From Parabacteroides acidifaciens (lineage in GTDB: Bacteria > Bacteroidota > Bacteroidia > Bacteroidales > Tannerellaceae), in contig NZ_QREV01000009.1 in the NCBI RefSeq assembly GCF_003363715.1, positions 1 to 64,000 of the forward strand: a stretch of DNA of 64,000 nt, written 5' to 3'. The notes under the pieces were generated by a model. The model was not told where the DNA came from, did not search any database, and saw only the letters and a program-made list of their open reading frames with translations. A program made the translations under genes and the position numbers. Of the stretch, positions 38,119 to 63,229 are shown one piece after another (positions within the stretch are counted from its first letter, which is position 1; every line of letters begins with the position of its first letter).

Positions 38119-38192
38119 GCCTCTTTAGCTCAGTTGGCCAGAGCACGTGATTTGTAATCTCGGGGTCGTTGGTTCGAATCCGACAAGAGGCT
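38119..38192 (+). tRNA. tRNA-Thr (TGT anticodon)
   Basis: The acceptor stem is GCCTCTT/AAGAGGC and the D arm GCTC/GAGC. The anticodon loop is TTTGTAA with TGT, and the T arm GTTGG TTCGAAT CCGAC. The anticodon stem CGTGA/TCTCG contains one T-T mismatch. No CCA is encoded. Confidence 0.95.
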
Positions 38193-38201
38193 CAAAATCT
38201 T

Positions 38202-38284
38202 GGGCAGTTACCAGAGTGGCCAAATGGGGCTGACTGTAACTCAGCTGTCTTTCGACTTCGGTGGTTCGAATCCATCACTGCCCA
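38202..38284 (+). tRNA. tRNA-Tyr (GTA anticodon)
   Basis: The acceptor stem is GGGCAGT/ACTGCCC. The anticodon stem-loop is GCTGA CTGTAAC TCAGC with GTA. A long variable arm, typical of bacterial tRNA-Tyr, and a T arm GGTGG TTCGAAT CCATC follow. It is nine bases downstream of tRNA-Thr, so the two share a transcript. Confidence 0.96.
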
Positions 38285-54020: not shown

Positions 54021-56330
54021 TTATCTCTTTTGTTTATCGTTCACTGAGAATGAATACGGGAAATCTTCCGGGTTCACGCCTCTCTGCATATTCGGCTTGT
54101 CGCCCATCTGGATGTCCAGCACACCGCCTTTCAACAGTTCGAAGTGTTCCAGGTAGTTCTTCGTATAGTTTTTTCCATTGAATGTCATCGATTCAATGTA
54201 GATGTTCTTGTCGCTGTTGGCGGGAGCATTGATCACCAGGTTCTTTCCGTTCTCGAAATGCAGTGTGGCTTTCTTAAACAGCGGAGCGCCGAGCACGTAC
54301 TGTGTCGTTCCGGGAGCAACCGGATAGAATCCGAGGGCGGAGAAGACATACCAGGCGGAAGTCTGCCCGTTATCCTCGTCACCGCAATAACCGTCAGGAG
54401 TCGGCGAGTACATACGGTTCATCACCTGGCGCAACCAGTATTGGGCTTTCCAGGGTTCGCCTGCATAGTTATACAGATAGATCATGTGCTGGATCGGCTG
54501 GTTGCCGTGTGCATAGTTACCCATGTTCATAATCTGCATTTCGCGGATTTCATGGATCACCTGCCCGTAATAACTGTCGTCGAATACAGGCGGCACGGCA
54601 AATACGGAATCCAGCATGGCCACAAACTCCTTTTTTCCGCCCATCAGGTCGATCAGTCCCTGCGGGTCGTGGAAGACAGACCAGGTGTAGTGCCAGCTGT
54701 TGCCTTCCGTGAATGCATCGCCCCATTTCAGCGGAGAGAAGGGGGCCATAAAGGTACCGTCCTGGTTCTTACCGCGCATCAGCTTGGTTTCCTTGTCGAA
54801 CAGGTTCTTATAATTCATTGCCCGCTTTGCATAGAGGTCCAGTTCCTTTTTAGGACGGCCCAGATCTTTGGCTATCTGGTAGATGCACCAGTCGTTATAG
54901 GCATATTCCAGTGTGCGGGCTGCATTCTCGTTGATTTTTACATCGTAAGGCACATAGCCCAGCTTGTTGTAGTATTCATATCCGAGACGGCCGGTAGAGG
55001 AAACGGTCGGATGTACATTTTCCGTTCCGTGGATCAGGCCTTTATAGAGCGTTTCCAGGTCGTCCACCTTTATGCCTTTCATATAGGCATCGACCAATAC
55101 GGAGGCAGAGTTGTTGCCGACCATGCAACCGCGATGTCCAGGACTTGCCCATTCGGGGAAGAACCCGCTTTCTTTATAGGTATTAATCAAGCCTTCCTGC
55201 ATCTCCTTCGCCATCGTCGGATACATCAGGTTCAGGAATGGGAACAGGCAACGGAATGTATCCCAGAAACCGGTATCGGTAAACATATAACCCGGCAGCA
55301 CCTCGCCGTTGTACGGGCTGTAGTGCACCACTTTTCCGGCAGCGTCGATTTCATAGAACTTGCGCGGGAACAGCAGCGAGCGGTACATACAGGAATAGAA
55401 CGTGCGGAACTGGTCCGTCGTCCCTCCTTCCACTTCGATCTTGCCCAGTTCCTTATTCCAGGCATCCTTGCCTTTCTGAACCAGTGTATCGAAGTTATCG
55501 TTGCCCAGTTCCTTCATGTTGACGGCTGCCTGGTCGAAGCTGATAAAAGAGGAAGCGACTTTTGCATGCACGATTTCTCCTTTAGCCGTCTTGAAACCGA
55601 TTACCGCTCCGACATGGTCGGAAGTCTGCTCGCGTGCGCCTTCTTTCAGGGCTGCATCCGCAAAAGTTGCTTCGTAGGTGAACGGTTTGTCGAATTCGAT
55701 GATGAAATAGTTCTTGAAGTTATCGGGAACGCCGCCACTATTCTTGGTCGTATAGCCGATGATCTTGTTTTCTTCCGGGATCACCTTTATGTAAGATCCC
55801 TTATCGAGTGCGTCCACTACGATGTAAGAATGTTCGTTTTCGGGGAAAGTGAAGCGGAACATGGCGGCACGGTCGGTCGGTGTCAGTTCGGTCTTCACAT
55901 CGTGCTCGGCCAGATAGACTTCGTAATAATACGGTTTGGCGATTTCGCTTTTATGTGAAAACCAACTGGCGCGTTTATCCTCGTTGAACTCCGGAGCGCC
56001 AACAACCGGCATGATGGCAAACTGTCCGTAGTCGTTGATCCAGGGGCTCGGCTGGTGGGTTTGCTTGAAACCGCGTATTTTGTTGGCCGTATAAACGTAT
56101 GCCCATCCGTCGCCCATCTTTCCGGTCTGCGGTGTCCAGAAGTTCATCCCCCAGGGACGCGCAATGGCAGGATAGGTATTACCGGTCGACAATTCAAAAG
56201 TCGACTGCGTCCCCATCAAAGGATTCACATACTCCACCGGGTCGAAAGCCGCATCTGCCGCAACGGCAGGCCTTCCTAAGCTGGTTAGCATAGCAATAAG
56301 GGCAAAAGCCCATATACTTTTTTTCTTCAT
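54021..56330 (-). CDS. GH92 alpha-1,2-mannosidase
   Basis: The 769-residue protein has a cleaved-type signal peptide ending PAVAADA. The expected residues fall in order: acid Glu542 in FTEGNSWHYTW, His593-Glu594 in VIHEIREM, and Asp651/Asp653 in GDEDNGQTSAWYVF. Their spacing (51, 58, 2) equals that of BT3990 (Glu533, His584-Glu585, Asp642/Asp644, from memory). That points to Ca2+-dependent exo-alpha-1,2-mannosidase activity. It follows the terminator after susD and precedes a second GH92 by 3 bases. Confidence 0.93.
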   Translation of the reverse strand: MKKKSIWAFALIAMLTSLGRPAVAADAAFDPVEYVNPLMGTQSTFELSTGNTYPAIARPWGMNFWTPQTGKMGDGWAYVYTANKIRGFKQTHQPSPWINDYGQFAIMPVVGAPEFNEDKRASWFSHKSEIAKPYYYEVYLAEHDVKTELTPTDRAAMFRFTFPENEHSYIVVDALDKGSYIKVIPEENKIIGYTTKNSGGVPDNFKNYFIIEFDKPFTYEATFADAALKEGAREQTSDHVGAVIGFKTAKGEIVHAKVASSFISFDQAAVNMKELGNDNFDTLVQKGKDAWNKELGKIEVEGGTTDQFRTFYSCMYRSLLFPRKFYEIDAAGKVVHYSPYNGEVLPGYMFTDTGFWDTFRCLFPFLNLMYPTMAKEMQEGLINTYKESGFFPEWASPGHRGCMVGNNSASVLVDAYMKGIKVDDLETLYKGLIHGTENVHPTVSSTGRLGYEYYNKLGYVPYDVKINENAARTLEYAYNDWCIYQIAKDLGRPKKELDLYAKRAMNYKNLFDKETKLMRGKNQDGTFMAPFSPLKWGDAFTEGNSWHYTWSVFHDPQGLIDLMGGKKEFVAMLDSVFAVPPVFDDSYYGQVIHEIREMQIMNMGNYAHGNQPIQHMIYLYNYAGEPWKAQYWLRQVMNRMYSPTPDGYCGDEDNGQTSAWYVFSALGFYPVAPGTTQYVLGAPLFKKATLHFENGKNLVINAPANSDKNIYIESMTFNGKNYTKNYLEHFELLKGGVLDIQMGDKPNMQRGVNPEDFPYSFSVNDKQKR

Positions 56331-56541: not shown

Positions 56542-58119
56542 TTATTTAAGAGAATAGCCGTCATTCTGGGTCAGACTCGGGTTGCGTTGGATTTCATTGA
56601 TAGAAATCGGCCATAACAGGTCTGTTTTCTTAAATGTAGCTCCCGATGCATTTGTAGCACCAACCAGCTCTTGGAAATCAACTTTGCCCGCTTCCGTCTC
56701 GGAGATTACCGGGAATTTGCCGGTACGCAGACAGTCATCCCAAATCTTAAATTCCAACGGGAACTCGCGCAAACGTTCCAACCAACATTCTTTTATAAAT
56801 AAATCTTTCGACAGGGCCTGCAACTCGCTTGCATATTGTGCGACGGTCTTGCCATTCATGTCGGCACGGGCTTTCACCTGCGCCAGGCAGTTGGCAGCTT
56901 CAGCCGTAACACCTGTGCTTTGTGCTATGGATTCGGCGGCAACCAACAACGCTTCCGCATAACGGAAGAAGTTCTGGTCTTTCGTTCCGCGTCCTGTTGT
57001 CAACAAAGCATCTTCATCAAACCAGTACCAACAGCCGGCTGCCGATTTCGATTCCCATACGGCTCCGGTATTCGGGTTCGTGTATTTCCAATGGAAGAAC
57101 TGATTCGGCTGGATACGCAAGTCTTCCTTGTCATATACATTCAGGAAGCGGTTGGTAGGACCGTACACACGTTCCATGATCGAATAGGTTCCGAATGTAG
57201 CCACGGCAGAAGCATCGCAGGAATAAGTAGGCCACCAGTCGCCGGTATGAATAGAAGCATCATATTCGACAGCATAGATCACCTCATCCAAATCGTCTGT
57301 CGTACGAAGTTTATTAAAGGCGCTATTCATGGCAAGATCCTCGTTAGCCGTCAGTTTGTGGGGAGATTCCACAACCATTTTGGCATAAGTGGCGGCATCC
57401 GCATACTTGCCTTGCTGCAAATAAACATCGGCCAGCATCATGGCAGCCGCATATTTCGTAATACGATGTGCGTTATCTGCAAACTTGGCAGCGGGAAGGA
57501 CCTCTACGGCTTCTTTCAAATCCGCCTCGATCAATGTATAAACAGTTTCAACCGGAGTACGTTCGAGATACAGGTTTTCGATCGACTCATACGGTTCGGT
57601 CGGCATCGGGACTGCTCCTAACATTTTCACCAGGTAAAAATAATTGAATGCGCGGAAGAATTTTGCTTCTGCAATCAATCTCGCGGATGTCGATTCACTC
57701 ATTGCGATGTCCGGAATATGCTTGATCGCGCCGTTCGCAATATTGATAGATTTATAACACTCATCCCAAACGCCATCTATCATACTGGATACAGTACTGG
57801 TATTCTGCTGGCGGGTCAGTTCGCGCGCATATTTACAAACAACTTCCTGTCCTTCATAACTGTTCGTAAAATATCCGGTCAGCATACCGGAGATCGAAGC
57901 GTTCGGACCGATATAAGCAGAGGGAGCCTGCGCGATACGCATAACGGCTCCATTGCGATACAAGTAATTGACATTCGCCTCTGCCTGTTCTGCAGTCTTG
58001 TAATAGTCAACGGAAGTCAAGGAAGATTTAGGATTTTCATCCAGGAAATTACAGGACGTCATACCTGCCAGGCCGACGCATAATATAGCGATTGTTAATA
58101 TCTTTCTCATTTTCTTCAT
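56542..58119 (-). CDS. SusD/RagB family glycan-binding lipoprotein
   Basis: The 525-residue protein has a lipobox in LAGMTSCNFLDENPKS (Cys near residue 23). The SusD order follows: TPR-like helices with YYKTAEQAEANVNYLYRN near 40, AEAKFFRAFNYFYLVKMLGAVPM near 160 and DDLDEVIYAVEY near 275. The C-terminal part ends in WPISINEIQRNPSLTQNDGY, the usual closing motif. It captures glycans at the cell surface and caps the SusC channel. The gene follows susC by 15 bases. Confidence 0.95.
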   Translation of the reverse strand: MKKMRKILTIAILCVGLAGMTSCNFLDENPKSSLTSVDYYKTAEQAEANVNYLYRNGAVMRIAQAPSAYIGPNASISGMLTGYFTNSYEGQEVVCKYARELTRQQNTSTVSSMIDGVWDECYKSINIANGAIKHIPDIAMSESTSARLIAEAKFFRAFNYFYLVKMLGAVPMPTEPYESIENLYLERTPVETVYTLIEADLKEAVEVLPAAKFADNAHRITKYAAAMMLADVYLQQGKYADAATYAKMVVESPHKLTANEDLAMNSAFNKLRTTDDLDEVIYAVEYDASIHTGDWWPTYSCDASAVATFGTYSIMERVYGPTNRFLNVYDKEDLRIQPNQFFHWKYTNPNTGAVWESKSAAGCWYWFDEDALLTTGRGTKDQNFFRYAEALLVAAESIAQSTGVTAEAANCLAQVKARADMNGKTVAQYASELQALSKDLFIKECWLERLREFPLEFKIWDDCLRTGKFPVISETEAGKVDFQELVGATNASGATFKKTDLLWPISINEIQRNPSLTQNDGYSLK

Positions 58120-58134
58120 CTGATTAATTGTTGA

Positions 58135-61100
58135 TTAAAAAGTCACATTCACACCGAACGTAAATGTCCGGGCTCTCGGATATGAGAAGAAGGTCATATT
58201 CTGACCGAATTTGTCCATCTGGGAAGAGCTTTCAGGATCATATCCGTTAAACTCTTTCGAACAAAGCAAGAATGCATTGTTCACATTTGCATACAAGCGC
58301 AAACCTGATAAACCGAGAGATTTAATCATATTCGGCTCAAAGTTATATCCGAGCTGAATCAGGTTACAACGCAGGTAAGAACCATCGGCCACCCACTGGG
58401 AATCTGTTTTTGTATCCTGTCCTGCATGGTCTATACCGTTATGCTTGCCGCTGCTCAGGTAAATCATCTGCTGCATCGCATCCGGGTTTGTTCCGTCATA
58501 AGCATCATACAAAATGTTGCTCAAACCGTTGGTAATACCAAAACGGTCGTAGGTAGAGTGATAAAAACGCTGCAAGGTTTCGACACCCCAGACAAACTGC
58601 ATATCGACAGTCAAATCAAAGTTCTTATAGCTGAATGTATTCACAAAGCTACCGGTCCAGTCAGGCAAACCTTTACCGATGATCTCTTTTTCTTCAGAAC
58701 GTTTGGCACGTCCGATCTGATTCTTCTCGCAGTTTCCTGCTTCAAAATCTTCTTTGGTATATACGCCGTAACGTTTGTATCCGTAGAAACTACCCATACT
58801 TTCGCCGACACGCAGGATGCTACCTCCGTTTACCCAATCGTACATGTAGATGTCTTCGTCGTTATCGCCCAATGCCAGGATTTCATTCTTATTATAGTTC
58901 AGATTCAGCGTAGAAGACCATGTAAAGTCGTGCGTCTGTACAGGCGTACCATTAATCATGATATCCAATCCCTGGTTTCTCACCGAGCCTATGTTCTTGA
59001 ATACAGAACTGAAACCGGTTGCATGGGGCAATGGACAATCCAGCAGCAAGTCTGTCGTTTTCTTATTGTAGTACGAAATATCGAAGTTCAGACGGTTCTG
59101 GAACAGGCCTAAATTGAAACCGACATCGAACTGTCCGGTTTTTTCCCATTTCAAATCCGGATTGCCCATTGTATTGATATACGACCACGGTCCCCGTTTG
59201 CCATCCAGCAAATCGGTTCCTGCATCCACATTCGCCAACGATTTGTAAGGATCAATTTCCGAGTTACCAGTCAGACCATAGCTGGTATGCAATTTCAGGT
59301 TACTGATCAGTTCGCTGTCTTTCAGGAAATCTTCCTGTGAGATATTCCATGCCAAACCGGCAGAAGGGAAGAATGCATATTTATTGTTTTCACCGAATTT
59401 AGAGGAACCGTCGACACGGGCCGTCACTGTTGCCGAATAACGGTCTTTATACGTGTAGGCAAAGCGCAGGAAGTAAGAGTTCATGGCCCATCTGTTCCAA
59501 TCGGATTCGGGAGCTGAAGGATTTGTTCCTACCTGCATATTGTTTTCTTCATAGAAATCATCCGAGAAACCTTCCGTATATGAGCGGTCATAGCTTCTTG
59601 TACGTTCCTGCCAGGAAAGACCGGCCATAGCGTTCAAACGGTGCTCACCAAACACTTTATTGTATGTCAGGTAAGTTTCTTCCTGCCAGTACAAGGTATT
59701 GGTGTGATTGATTTCGGCACGTCCCTGTTGCTGCATGGAGATGTTGTTCAGGTCGCGGGCTGAATATTCCTTATAAGTACGCTGGTGAGAGTCGATACCC
59801 AACTGGGTTTTCAGATCCAGGCCATCCAACAAATGGAATGTCAGGGCCATGTTTCCGAATATCTGGGTGTTATATCTCATTCTTTTCTGCTTTTCCAGAA
59901 TCATGACCGGATTCGACATACCTTCCAATCCGAACATATTGCTCTGTGTCATTGAAGTCGTACTGGTCGTATATTTGCCGTCCATATCCCGCACCGGATA
60001 CCAAGGCACCATTTCAATCATGGTACGGCGTGCATCCTGTCCGCCTCCGTCTTCCGGCGTATAGCGGCCCCAAGTATGGTTCACCAACAAGTTTACGGCT
60101 GTCGACAACCAGGTAGTCGGATTGGCATCATAGGCTACTTTGGCATTCAAACGCTTGTTGTAAGTATTCATCACAATACCCTGCTGATCCGTATAGTTCA
60201 GGAAAGCACCCATAGAAGAGTTCTTGCCGGCCTGCTGGATATTGATCTGGTGGTTATGGGAGATAGCAGTACGTGTCGCTTCTTTCTGCCAATCCGTATC
60301 ATAGAGCGGATTGCCATTAGCATCAAAATAATTCCGGTCACTGAACCAGTAAGAGCGGTCCAAAGACCAATCCTTACCCATGTATTCATTCTCATTGGCC
60401 AGACCGATCATGAAGGCATCACACCACTCCTGTGAATTTAGAAGATCCATGTAACGCGCCATCTGGCTAAGGCTTACAGATCCCTGATAGCTTACCTGCG
60501 TACCTTCACCACCTTTTTTACCACGTTTGGTTGTCACCATGATTACACCGTTGGCACCGCGCGCACCATAAATGGCAGCGGCAGAAGCATCTTTCAATAC
60601 TTCCATGCTTTCGATATCATTCGGGTTAACCAACTGGAAGTCTTCCATAACGACACCGTCCACTACATACAACGGATCGGAAGAAGAGTTGATGGTTGCC
60701 ATACCACGGATCACTACACGATTGGCATACGCACCCGGCTGGCTGGAGTTTGAAAAGATATTTACGCCGGACACTTTACCGCGAAGGTTTTCCAGTGCGC
60801 TGAAGTTTTGCGACTTTGCCAGTTCTTCGCCTTTGGCGACTCCGATAGAACCTGTAACATCCGATTTACGCATCGTACCGTAACCCACAACTACGACCTC
60901 TTCCAAAGCCTGTGAGTCTTCCGTCAGCATGACAGTAAAGGATGTCTGATTTCCAACCGGCAGTTCCTTTGTCAGATAACCGATAAAAGAAACTTGCAGG
61001 ACAGCACCCTCCGGCACATCGGAAATCGTAAAGTTTCCGTCCATATCCGTCATCGTGCCGTTAGTCGTGCCTTTAATAATAACATTGGCACCGGCTACCG

Positions 61101-61494
61101 GACCAAATTCATCATTTACGACACCGGTAATCGTTTTACCATTCTGGGCAACGACCGGACTTGCGTTCTTTGTCAAAACGATATAATCGTTTTCAAACGC
61201 ATACTTTACATTCGAACGACCGAATGCTTCACTTAAATACTGAGCGACAGTTTTATTCCCTGATTTAACGGAAACTGTTTCGTTCGTATTCACTTCATTT
61301 TTACTATAGACAAACAGATAATCCGTTTGTTTCTCTACCTGATCGATAAACTCACCGATCGTCAAATTCTTTCCGCTGATATTGACCCTTGCATTTTGCG
61401 AACTCGTTTTGGCTGCAAATGAAGAGAATACGCAAAGGAAAAGAAGGAAGGCTGAAATTCTCATGACATTTAGAAATTTCGGTTCTTTTTTCAT
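58135..61494 (-). CDS. SusC/RagA TonB-dependent receptor with STN domain
   Basis: The 1119-residue protein has a signal peptide. An STN domain at about 35-110 (VNISGKNLTIGEFIDQVEKQ) is the part that signals to FecR. A carboxypeptidase-D-like domain lies at about 118-195 (ITGVVNDEFGPVAGANV, MDGNFTISDVP). Next come the TonB-box-like EEVVVVGYGTMRKSDVTGSI, the plug (IRGMATINSSSDPLYVVDG, KDASAAAIYGARGANGVIMVTTKRG) and a barrel ending FGVNVTF. It imports glycans using TonB energy. Its start codon lies in the -7 box of a predicted antisense RNA. Confidence 0.96.
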   Translation of the reverse strand: MKKEPKFLNVMRISAFLLFLCVFSSFAAKTSSQNARVNISGKNLTIGEFIDQVEKQTDYLFVYSKNEVNTNETVSVKSGNKTVAQYLSEAFGRSNVKYAFENDYIVLTKNASPVVAQNGKTITGVVNDEFGPVAGANVIIKGTTNGTMTDMDGNFTISDVPEGAVLQVSFIGYLTKELPVGNQTSFTVMLTEDSQALEEVVVVGYGTMRKSDVTGSIGVAKGEELAKSQNFSALENLRGKVSGVNIFSNSSQPGAYANRVVIRGMATINSSSDPLYVVDGVVMEDFQLVNPNDIESMEVLKDASAAAIYGARGANGVIMVTTKRGKKGGEGTQVSYQGSVSLSQMARYMDLLNSQEWCDAFMIGLANENEYMGKDWSLDRSYWFSDRNYFDANGNPLYDTDWQKEATRTAISHNHQINIQQAGKNSSMGAFLNYTDQQGIVMNTYNKRLNAKVAYDANPTTWLSTAVNLLVNHTWGRYTPEDGGGQDARRTMIEMVPWYPVRDMDGKYTTSTTSMTQSNMFGLEGMSNPVMILEKQKRMRYNTQIFGNMALTFHLLDGLDLKTQLGIDSHQRTYKEYSARDLNNISMQQQGRAEINHTNTLYWQEETYLTYNKVFGEHRLNAMAGLSWQERTRSYDRSYTEGFSDDFYEENNMQVGTNPSAPESDWNRWAMNSYFLRFAYTYKDRYSATVTARVDGSSKFGENNKYAFFPSAGLAWNISQEDFLKDSELISNLKLHTSYGLTGNSEIDPYKSLANVDAGTDLLDGKRGPWSYINTMGNPDLKWEKTGQFDVGFNLGLFQNRLNFDISYYNKKTTDLLLDCPLPHATGFSSVFKNIGSVRNQGLDIMINGTPVQTHDFTWSSTLNLNYNKNEILALGDNDEDIYMYDWVNGGSILRVGESMGSFYGYKRYGVYTKEDFEAGNCEKNQIGRAKRSEEKEIIGKGLPDWTGSFVNTFSYKNFDLTVDMQFVWGVETLQRFYHSTYDRFGITNGLSNILYDAYDGTNPDAMQQMIYLSSGKHNGIDHAGQDTKTDSQWVADGSYLRCNLIQLGYNFEPNMIKSLGLSGLRLYANVNNAFLLCSKEFNGYDPESSSQMDKFGQNMTFFSYPRARTFTFGVNVTF

Positions 61495-61501
61495 AACTTT
61501 G
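61469..61501 (+). promoter_or_regulatory. Plus-strand promoter of the antisense RNA
   Basis: TAACTTTG at 61494-61501 matches TAnnTTTG exactly. TTTA at 61469-61472, 21 bases before it, is a 3-of-4 match to -33 TTTG. No plus-strand gene lies downstream before the terminator, so the product would be a short RNA. Confidence 0.5.
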
Positions 61502-61507
61502 CTTCGT

Positions 61508-61590
61508 TTACTTGTTAATACTTAATTTGTTGGAATTTTGTGTTAGCTTTAGGGCCGGTAGGTGCGGGAACACTTATCGGTCCTTTTTAT
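61508..61590 (+). ncRNA. Predicted cis-antisense RNA opposite the susC leader
   Basis: The unit runs from the inferred start of the 61494-61501 promoter to a strong terminator. The terminator stem (61551-61564 with 61571-61584) has 14 pairs, three of them G-U, a 6-nt loop and a T-rich tail. On the minus strand the three G-U pairs become A-C mismatches and no T-run follows, so the structure belongs to plus-strand RNA. The RNA would be wholly complementary to the susC 5' leader. DonS-type RNAs occupy this place in Bacteroides PULs and repress susC. Confidence 0.6.
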
Positions 61591-61644
61591 ATTTTCTGTT
61601 CTCTAAATCATAGGCAGTAGCATTAAATTAAAGATTAGACATGT

Positions 61645-62619
61645 TTAGCGTATTGTGATGCAATTCGTTTCCTCGTCCTTCACAAAAGAGAAATAATAGA
61701 CTTTCTGCAGGGTTTGGAGCACACTCTCTACCCCGTCGCGCTGGCGGAACTTACCACTGAACCGGTACTGATCCAGCTTCCGGTTTTTCTGTATGATCGT
61801 TATGTCATAATAGAGTTCGAGTTTCCGGATGATCTCGCTGAAAGGGACATCGTCAAAAGCATAAATGCCTTCTTTCCACAAAAGGAAATCGGTGTTGTCA
61901 TAATAGCTCTTTTCCAGCTTTTCCCCCGTCCAGAAAACACATTCATGCGGGGCGATCTGCAGGGCTTCCGCATCGTTATCGCCGCTATATACTTTGACCG
62001 AACCTTCGACCAGCGAGGCGTTAAACTCTTCATCTCCTTTATAGGCAAAGACGTTGAACTTCGTACCTAACACTTTTATATTGGCTTTCTCTGTCGAGAC
62101 GATAAAAGGGGCTTCTTCATTTCGCTTCACTTCAAAGAAGGCTTCCCCGTCCAGTTCCACCCGCCGTTCTTTCTTGTCGAAGTGGTTCGGATAACGCAAA
62201 GTCGAACGGGCATTCAACCATACGGTCGTCCCATCGTGCAGTTTCAATAAGGCACGCTGTCCGGAAGGGGTGGAAAACTCTTCATAAGCAATCACCGGCT
62301 GTTCTACGGCGGGTTCCGGCCGGTTAGTGACGAGCCAAGTCGAGACAACAGCTATGCAAACGGCAGCTGCATATCCTACAATATGCCTGTAAAGAATCGC
62401 ATGCGATTCTTTTTTCCTGGAGTGTTTAAACTCCAGAAGCTTTCCTACGGCACGCGGTTCATCTTCTTCCGCCGGCATCCACGAAGTCAGGGCACGAATA
62501 TTCTGTACTGAAAAGAATTCTTTCTTCAGTTCGGCATCCGTCTCCATTGCGGCAAACAACTGTTTTTTCTCTTTTGCAGTTATTTCCCCGTAAAAATATT
62601 TAGTTATCAGCTCATGCAT
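61645..62619 (-). CDS. FecR family anti-sigma factor
   Basis: The 324-residue protein has a cytoplasmic sigma-binding N-terminus and one membrane helix at about 83-102 (IVGYAAAVCIAVVSTWLV). The periplasmic FecR domain follows (FSTPSGQRALLKLHDGTTVWLNARSTLRYP near 135-165). A DUF4974 domain with KLELYYDITI near 280 comes last. It passes the SusC STN signal to the sigma factor encoded 70 bases upstream. Confidence 0.94.
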   Translation of the reverse strand: MHELITKYFYGEITAKEKKQLFAAMETDAELKKEFFSVQNIRALTSWMPAEEDEPRAVGKLLEFKHSRKKESHAILYRHIVGYAAAVCIAVVSTWLVTNRPEPAVEQPVIAYEEFSTPSGQRALLKLHDGTTVWLNARSTLRYPNHFDKKERRVELDGEAFFEVKRNEEAPFIVSTEKANIKVLGTKFNVFAYKGDEEFNASLVEGSVKVYSGDNDAEALQIAPHECVFWTGEKLEKSYYDNTDFLLWKEGIYAFDDVPFSEIIRKLELYYDITIIQKNRKLDQYRFSGKFRQRDGVESVLQTLQKVYYFSFVKDEETNCITIR

Positions 62620-62689: not shown

Positions 62690-63229
62690 TTATTTAACAC
62701 TAACAAGAAATAGCAACAGGGGCAGGTAGTCTTTCAGTTCGACACGAAGTTTCTTTAAAGCTATGGCGATATGGTTCTCCACCGTATTTGCCGAGATATT
62801 CAGTTCTTCGGCGATTTCCCGGTATTTCATTCCTTCAATACGGCTTTTTAAAAATATTTCACGACAACGTTCCGGCAGTTTATCAATTGCATTTGCAATT
62901 ACTTTCTCGATTTCTTCCTCTGATGAAAAGGTATAGTTCAGCTGTTCGAGAGACATCAGCTTAAAGGATAGTTCCTGTTTATATTCTTCCGCCACCACCT
63001 TATGGCGAAGATAATCGAGGCTCCGGTTCTTTACAAGTGAAAAAAGATAGGAAACCAAGCTGATGCGGATATCCAGCACTTCCCGCTTCTCCCATAGAAG
63101 AAGGAAAACATCCTGAACCACGTTCTCGGCATCTTCTTCAAACACGACATATTCTTTTGCAAAACGGAGCATACGCGAATAATACATGACGTATATTCTA
63201 TCAAAGCTATTCTGTATGTCCTTTCCCAT
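62690..63229 (-). CDS. ECF-type RNA polymerase sigma factor
   Basis: The 179-residue protein has region 2 (FAKEYVVFEEDAENVVQDVFLLLWEKRE near 22-50) and region 4 with IANAIDKLPERCREIFLKSRIEGMKYREIAEEL and NISANTVENHIAIALKKLR. Such factors are held by FecR and released on substrate sensing to transcribe the PUL. The gene precedes fecR by 70 bases. Confidence 0.95.
   Translation of the reverse strand: MGKDIQNSFDRIYVMYYSRMLRFAKEYVVFEEDAENVVQDVFLLLWEKREVLDIRISLVSYLFSLVKNRSLDYLRHKVVAEEYKQELSFKLMSLEQLNYTFSSEEEIEKVIANAIDKLPERCREIFLKSRIEGMKYREIAEELNISANTVENHIAIALKKLRVELKDYLPLLLFLVSVK

Follow-up and report, generated by a model that had tools for sequence, protein, structure and literature searches.

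A predicted antisense RNA facing the susC leader of a GH92 polysaccharide utilisation locus in Parabacteroides acidifaciens

The leader of a susC gene in Parabacteroides acidifaciens is faced, on the opposite strand, by a unit that is best read, from its sequence, as a cis-antisense RNA of the DonS type about 84 nt long. Comparison across genomes establishes the RNA-like character of this unit, its strand, its conservation and its link to the junctions between fecR and susC genes. A promoter on the susC start codon would give rise to an untranslated RNA that probably pairs in cis with the leader and thereby keeps the susC-susD-GH92 operon off. The antisense unit was judged not to be a product of chance because it is conserved with covariation and recurs at other junctions.

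The locus and the predicted RNA

The window, that is, the whole stretch of 64,000 bases that was analysed, comprises bases 1–64000 of a contig in a 5.1 Mb genome. Its minus strand carries fecI, fecR, susC, susD and a GH92 gene in this order (Table 1). These genes make up a polysaccharide utilisation locus (PUL), the substrate of which is presumably a mannoside because of the GH92 gene. An orthologue of the locus, L021, is carried by Parabacteroides massiliensis on contig NZ_LT700189.1. An adjacent pair of plus-strand tRNA genes is found at 38119–38284 of the window.

Table 1. Genes of the locus and predicted elements of the antisense unit, in window coordinates
Feature	Position	Strand	Basis
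GH92 glycoside hydrolase (alpha-mannosidase family)	54021–56330	−	PF07971, TIGR01180
susD homologue	56542–58119	−	PF07980, PF14322
susC homologue with STN domain, presumed target	58135–61494	−	PF07715, PF07660, TIGR04056
TAACTTTG, match to TAnnTTTG (Bacteroides −7 promoter consensus), sharing a base with the complement of the start codon of susC	61494–61501	+	Sequence; consensus as given in PMC7366714
Predicted antisense RNA, ~84 nt, ends placed to within a few bases	61507–61590	+	Box plus 5 nt to T-tail
Stem 1: GTTAATAC (61514–61521) pairing with GTGTTAGC (61540–61547)	61514–61547	+	Folding; weaker than stem 2
Stem 2: 14-bp terminator hairpin, loop CGGGAA	61551–61584	+	Folding; hairpin search
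T-rich terminator tail	61585–61596	+	Sequence
GCCTATG, candidate −10 element of the susC ECF-type promoter	61609–61615	−	Invariant in 10/10 orthologues
fecR anti-sigma factor	61645–62619	−	PF04773, PF16344
fecI-type ECF sigma factor	62690–63229	−	PF08281, TIGR02985

The original prediction placed a box over the susC start codon on the opposite strand, and such a box is present: the first T of TAACTTTG is shared with CAT (61492–61494), the complement of the start codon. The consensus that it matches, TAnnTTTG, is described as that of the Bacteroides −7 promoter element (PMC7366714). Only one of the 42 genes in the window, namely this susC, has the box motif at its start; of 540 TATG occurrences, 4 have it. 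No clear −33 element was detected across 46 box-anchored leaders; by the account in PMC7366714, this element was likewise not found in Flavobacterium johnsoniae. The predicted RNA length is ~84 nt, or 85 nt by the rule applied to all leaders. For the 45 box-bearing leaders the predicted lengths range from 65 to 124 nt with a median of 90, the hairpin of L058 being probably mis-called. No plus-strand ORF of at least 80 aa overlaps 61237–61713, which agrees with the earlier statement that the strand lacks a gene here.

Also as predicted, a 14-bp stem with a T-rich tail follows about 50 bases on. The spacing between the box and stem 2 is 49 bases, the arms occupy 61551–61564 and 61571–61584, and the loop 61565–61570. 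Three of the 14 pairs are G-U pairs that form in plus-strand RNA only, so that the stem is complete on that strand alone. Folding of the plus strand of 61505–61600 gave −32.5 kcal/mol (z −5.7), a value reached by none of 200 shuffles, compared to −11.3 kcal/mol (z −1.9) for the minus strand of the same interval. Among 11 terminator-like sites in 54–64 kb, stem 2 is tied at the top in number of pairs (14) and is the richest in G-C pairs (7); the count of these sites is in itself not above chance (11 vs a shuffled mean of 9.0).

From its sequence, GCCTATG may be an ECF promoter element of susC, in which case the susC 5′ end would lie near 61602. A GCCTATG-like motif is found in 22 of 36 fecR-susC leaders of the P. 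acidifaciens genome. The candidate antisense and ECF promoter boxes of the window face each other at a distance of ~108 bp. The predicted RNA, which consists of the 5′ stem and the terminator hairpin, would end before the candidate ECF promoter; almost the entire susC 5′ leader, from ~13 nt upstream of the ATG to near the 5′ end, would therefore be complementary to it. An ~80-nt product fully complementary to the leader had been proposed; the present estimate of its length is ~84 nt.

Conservation and covariation among orthologous leaders

Matches in 15 of 38 genomes of the genus were obtained by a DNA search with the leader, and a protein search yielded 34 SusC relatives. The leader region is common to 11 loci, that of the window included, and fecI, fecR and susC are all present at ten of these (L001–L009 and L022; L003 and L021 are one locus, for which L003 was taken for analysis). 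The box, the 5′ segment, both stems and CATAGGC are kept in all ten, a result that is favoured by the way the set was assembled, since nine of the ten were found by DNA search using the leader itself, which diverged leaders would escape. The box reads TAnnTTTG in eight orthologues and TAnnTTTA in two, the variant being TAACTTTA. Loss of the stem and the box from homologous loci, named beforehand as the outcome that would count against the RNA, was thus not observed among these ten.

In an alignment of the ten orthologues, 98.1% of 207 cells are paired. Nine of the 14 pairs of stem 2 (23 cells) carry changes on both sides, compared to at most three pairs in a control in which the partners were slid by 1–3 columns. 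Of 220 pair cells, 33 are G-U and none is A-C, as expected if the RNA is the plus strand; other mismatches account for 4 cells and gaps for 13. Seven of the eight pairs of stem 1 are formed in all ten orthologues and the outermost one in nine, with nearly no covariation. Stem 1 being almost invariant, it is stem 2 that the covariation supports. The L005 terminator has the apical loop TTCCCG, the reverse complement of the usual CGGGAA, on an intact stem.

The eleventh leader-sharing locus, L010 (G031), has a SusC orthologue and no fecR match upstream; both box and stem are absent from it. Its leader keeps CATAGGC, and a GH18-like frame was read by eye upstream. Five SusC relatives found by the protein search have a detectable fecR. 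Box and terminator are present at three of them (L021, L022 and L052) and neither was found at L031 and L034, where fecR is only 27–31% identical. A set of 31 SusC relatives was tested, of which two lie too near a contig end, three have fecR and 26 lack it as judged by tblastn with the FecR of the window. The box was found at the susC start of none of the 26 relatives without detected fecR, and an antisense terminator at −15 kcal/mol in one (L042); one of the three fecR-bearing relatives of this set, L052, has both. At L011–L014, L017, L019 and L020 the DNA match is limited to the surroundings of the susC start, and no box was found there. L015 coincides with L112, and L016 and L018 were left out of the leader comparison.

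Two inverted copies of a 41-nt segment from the susC start were noticed at L030 and L027 (also L012/L017 and L013/L019). They are 85–88% identical to the window, their outer ends lie ~570–670 bp apart, and they are possibly an invertible or duplicated pair.

Recurrence at fecR-susC junctions

A covariance search for the stem had been suggested together with the original prediction. We built a covariance model, R1, from the RNA of the ten orthologues with the promoter box excluded. In the window it matches 61502–61589 with 91.4 bits, this sequence being among the ten used to build it. In the P. acidifaciens genome, at E of 1 or better, all eight matches fell at fecR-susC junctions, the fecR genes being found separately. 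Across the genus, at E 0.01, 18 of 38 genomes have a match and 20 have none. Forty loci, which cover part of the places matched in the genus search, were taken from R1 matches in this genome, the genus and the order; 37 of them are fecR-susC junctions and three are not (L112, L129 and L130). In the order sample, at E 0.001 and with filters that lose weak matches, 4 of 147 other genomes gave a match, two of these loci being fecR-susC junctions. When applied to the 38 fecR loci of the P. acidifaciens genome at E of 5 or better, R1 gave 17 matches, 14 of them at the junction; the others are at L058 (2831–2961), L082 (1299–1376) and L090 (2856–2923).

Since R1 is a genus-level model, the wider survey was done on the junctions. 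In the P. acidifaciens genome, 36 of 38 fecR genes have a susC match behind them and the remaining two were dropped. Terminators at −15 kcal/mol or better were detected on the antisense strand in 23/36 junctions, on the sense strand in 0/36 and in 2/720 shuffles. At a looser threshold of −8 kcal/mol the contrast is weaker (27/36, 6/36 and 134/720, respectively). At 23 of the 36 junctions the start codon of susC bears the box, and a terminator of −12 or better accompanies it in 21/23 leaders, compared to 3/13 leaders without the box (p 6e-5).

Two further samples consist of the fecR matches listed first, not of a random draw: an order sample of 60 loci from 47 genomes (52 usable, eight without a usable junction) and a sample of the family of Hallella multisaccharivorax, with 60 loci from 20 genomes (57 usable, three dropped). 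Some of the sampled genomes (G002, G028, G132 and G274) belong to the genus or family of the window, and L248 and L249 have identical leaders. As susC we took a tblastn match to the SusC N-termini of the P. acidifaciens genome. The box was present in 23/52 leaders of the order sample and in 18/57 of the Hallella family, counts that are raised because the script chose a boxed in-frame ATG when there was one. Terminators of −12 or better were found in 23/23 boxed vs 6/29 unboxed leaders in the order sample, and in 16/18 vs 9/39 in the Hallella family. When leaders shorter than 80 nt are set aside, the corresponding numbers are 22/22 vs 5/13 (p 5e-5) and 16/18 vs 9/25 (p 6e-4). On the sense strand, terminators at −12 were detected in 6/52 and 5/57 leaders. 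The layout of box and terminator is thus a majority feature in the P. acidifaciens genome and a minority feature in the order and Hallella family samples.

A strand-symmetric search of the box-bearing leaders produced 62 unique hairpins with 94 G-U and 18 A-C pairs; 43 of the hairpins lean to the antisense strand and three to the sense strand.

The apical loops of many sister terminators in L055–L090 look alike by eye (roughly RUGYUnnnRCAY), despite different target leaders, and may perhaps reflect a shared protein or RNA contact.

Proposed action, alternatives and known antisense RNAs

In the mechanism that we favour, a promoter with its −7 box over the start codon of susC would drive the untranslated RNA of ~84 nt from the plus strand, its transcription and exact ends being inferred from the arrangement of box, stems and T-tail. 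When the inducing glycan is absent, any susC mRNA that leaks through would be paired with the RNA in cis. The A-rich and otherwise little-structured leader would be converted to a duplex, so that translation initiation would be blocked and/or the mRNA exposed to RNase, and the susC-susD-GH92 operon would stay off. With FecI active, sense transcription would cross the antisense promoter and outnumber the RNA; we infer the pairing and the repression, and likewise this release on induction. The free sense leader of susC has no special structure (z −0.07), and a duplex with the antisense RNA would therefore be a large change. When 23 antisense 5′ segments were paired with non-cognate leaders (506 pairs), the median was −14.0 kcal/mol, slightly but significantly better than −13.45 for shuffled sequences (p 0.0007). 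Cross-pairing so near the background favours action in cis. Action in trans on other susC leaders was rejected, since the pairing is only slightly above that of shuffled sequences.

The arrangement of the two promoters could also act by itself. Candidate promoters that face each other ~108 bp apart, with the antisense box overlapping the susC start, are what would be expected if a convergent antisense promoter limited susC through polymerase collision and the short RNA were a by-product. We consider this transcriptional interference unlikely, because the conserved 5′ stem and a covarying terminator that stops short of the candidate ECF −10 element suggest that a defined RNA end matters; a terminator ending before this element also favours an effect at the RNA level over promoter occlusion.

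Somewhat less probable still is that the hairpin is an insulator only, stopping stray antisense transcription from susC before it reaches the susC promoter or fecR, with no regulatory RNA involved. Where the GCCTATG-like motif was found (26 of the 45 leaders), terminators do lie just before the candidate ECF promoter, the median gap between terminator end and −10 element being 28.5 nt, and most antisense starts of B. thetaiotaomicron may be noise according to PMC7366714. However, an insulator leaves unexplained the box on the start codon, the association of box and terminator, and the conserved stem 1.

We think it very unlikely that the RNA is an activator that stabilises or remodels susC mRNA without repression. 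Positively correlated pairs of antisense RNA and PUL are among those reported in PMC10994844, but DonS represses its PUL as described in PMC11697453. The leader without the RNA, in addition, has no special structure to speak for such a role.

It is hardly credible that CAAAnnTATG serves as a translation context and that the hairpin belongs to the structure of the susC mRNA leader. The motif does abut the start codon, and Bacteroidota start contexts are A-rich; but of the 42 window genes, the 41 other than this susC lack it, and so do all 26 SusC relatives without detected fecR. In addition, the hairpins favour pairing on the antisense strand by 43 to 3, and strong terminators at the 36 junctions of this genome number 23 antisense vs 0 sense.

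The repressive cis-antisense RNA can be set in a wider frame. In our judgement it is evenly balanced whether, across Bacteroidales, susC genes under ECF/FecR control often carry a built-in antisense switch as a standard PUL part. Its promoter would lie on the start codon and its terminator at the start of the leader, forming mutually exclusive transcription units, with the antisense RNA made at rest and read-through upon induction. PULs decide the glycan diet of gut bacteria, and if many FecR-controlled susC genes carry such a switch, antisense control would be a common layer of glycan choice in the order. The fixed geometry, with a box on the start codon and a terminator before the candidate susC promoter, offers a simple rule by which such RNAs can be looked for in sequence, and it points to leader changes that could separate pairing from transcriptional interference.

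PUL-associated cis-antisense RNAs of the DonS type, reportedly described by Cao et al. 2016, are known from B. fragilis and B. thetaiotaomicron, and the position of DonS is said to adjoin an anti-sigma gene. DonS is described in PMC7366714 as one of a family of 78–128 nt antisense RNAs divergent to susC, with ten more RNAs in DonS-like orientation in B. thetaiotaomicron, five of them confirmed by Northern. The RNA predicted here is likewise short and divergent to a susC homologue, and its ~84 nt fall inside that published range; the DonS-like placement that had been proposed for it fits these descriptions as regards divergence to susC. DonS is divergent to an N-glycan PUL, which it represses by a mechanism described as unknown (PMC11697453); the present RNA faces a GH92 PUL, in a genus other than Bacteroides. 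According to PMC10994844, the annotation of B. thetaiotaomicron includes 32 antisense RNAs associated with PULs, with both negative and positive antisense-PUL correlations, and PMC9723704 reports antisense RNAs for 15 B. fragilis PULs. Given the 32 RNAs so annotated, the proposed extension of DonS-type control to a GH92 locus in another genus is less of a novelty than it might seem. The comparison with DonS is made by description; the features established here for the predicted RNA are a box at the start codon and a terminator with covariation.

In a high-mannose N-glycan PUL, FopS acts beside the start codon of susC, and it is deposited in Rfam, as stated in PMC11697453. Like the RNA predicted here, FopS and GibS of B. 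thetaiotaomicron are described as having a single-stranded 5′ part and a terminator hairpin. In contrast to FopS, for which a shared seed and many targets are described, the present RNA is encoded opposite its presumed target, lacks an Rfam match and pairs with other leaders only slightly above shuffled sequences. At the gathering score, Rfam returned two tRNAs only for the window and one tRNA only for 20 sister loci; at 61400–61700 there were eight matches, all below the gathering score, the best with E 0.16. Membership in a known RNA family, FopS/GibS included, was rejected on the lack of an Rfam match at the gathering score, in a copy of Rfam that may lack FopS.

Plasmid and toxin-antitoxin antisense RNAs act on leader RNAs. 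They resemble the RNA described here in bearing hairpins and in being made opposite a 5′ leader; what sets it apart from them is that it faces a nutrient-import operon and that its promoter box overlaps the start codon of this target. In the literature searched, the founding 2016 DonS paper excepted, we recognised no description of such an RNA in Parabacteroides or of a promoter box at the start codon of susC. A promoter box locked to the start codon that goes with an antisense terminator across many loci, and a covarying fold, are what is added here, although they may already have been published.

At 1480–1640 of L112 (G020) the unit was observed in full, with its box, its two stems, the terminator and CATAGGC, and no susC or fecR match adjoins it. 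Its flanks were read by eye as DNA methylase and glycosyl hydrolase frames, and a 104-aa plus-strand frame (1322–1636) crosses the unit. The copy may be an orphan or trans-acting one, a remnant, or an assembly fault.
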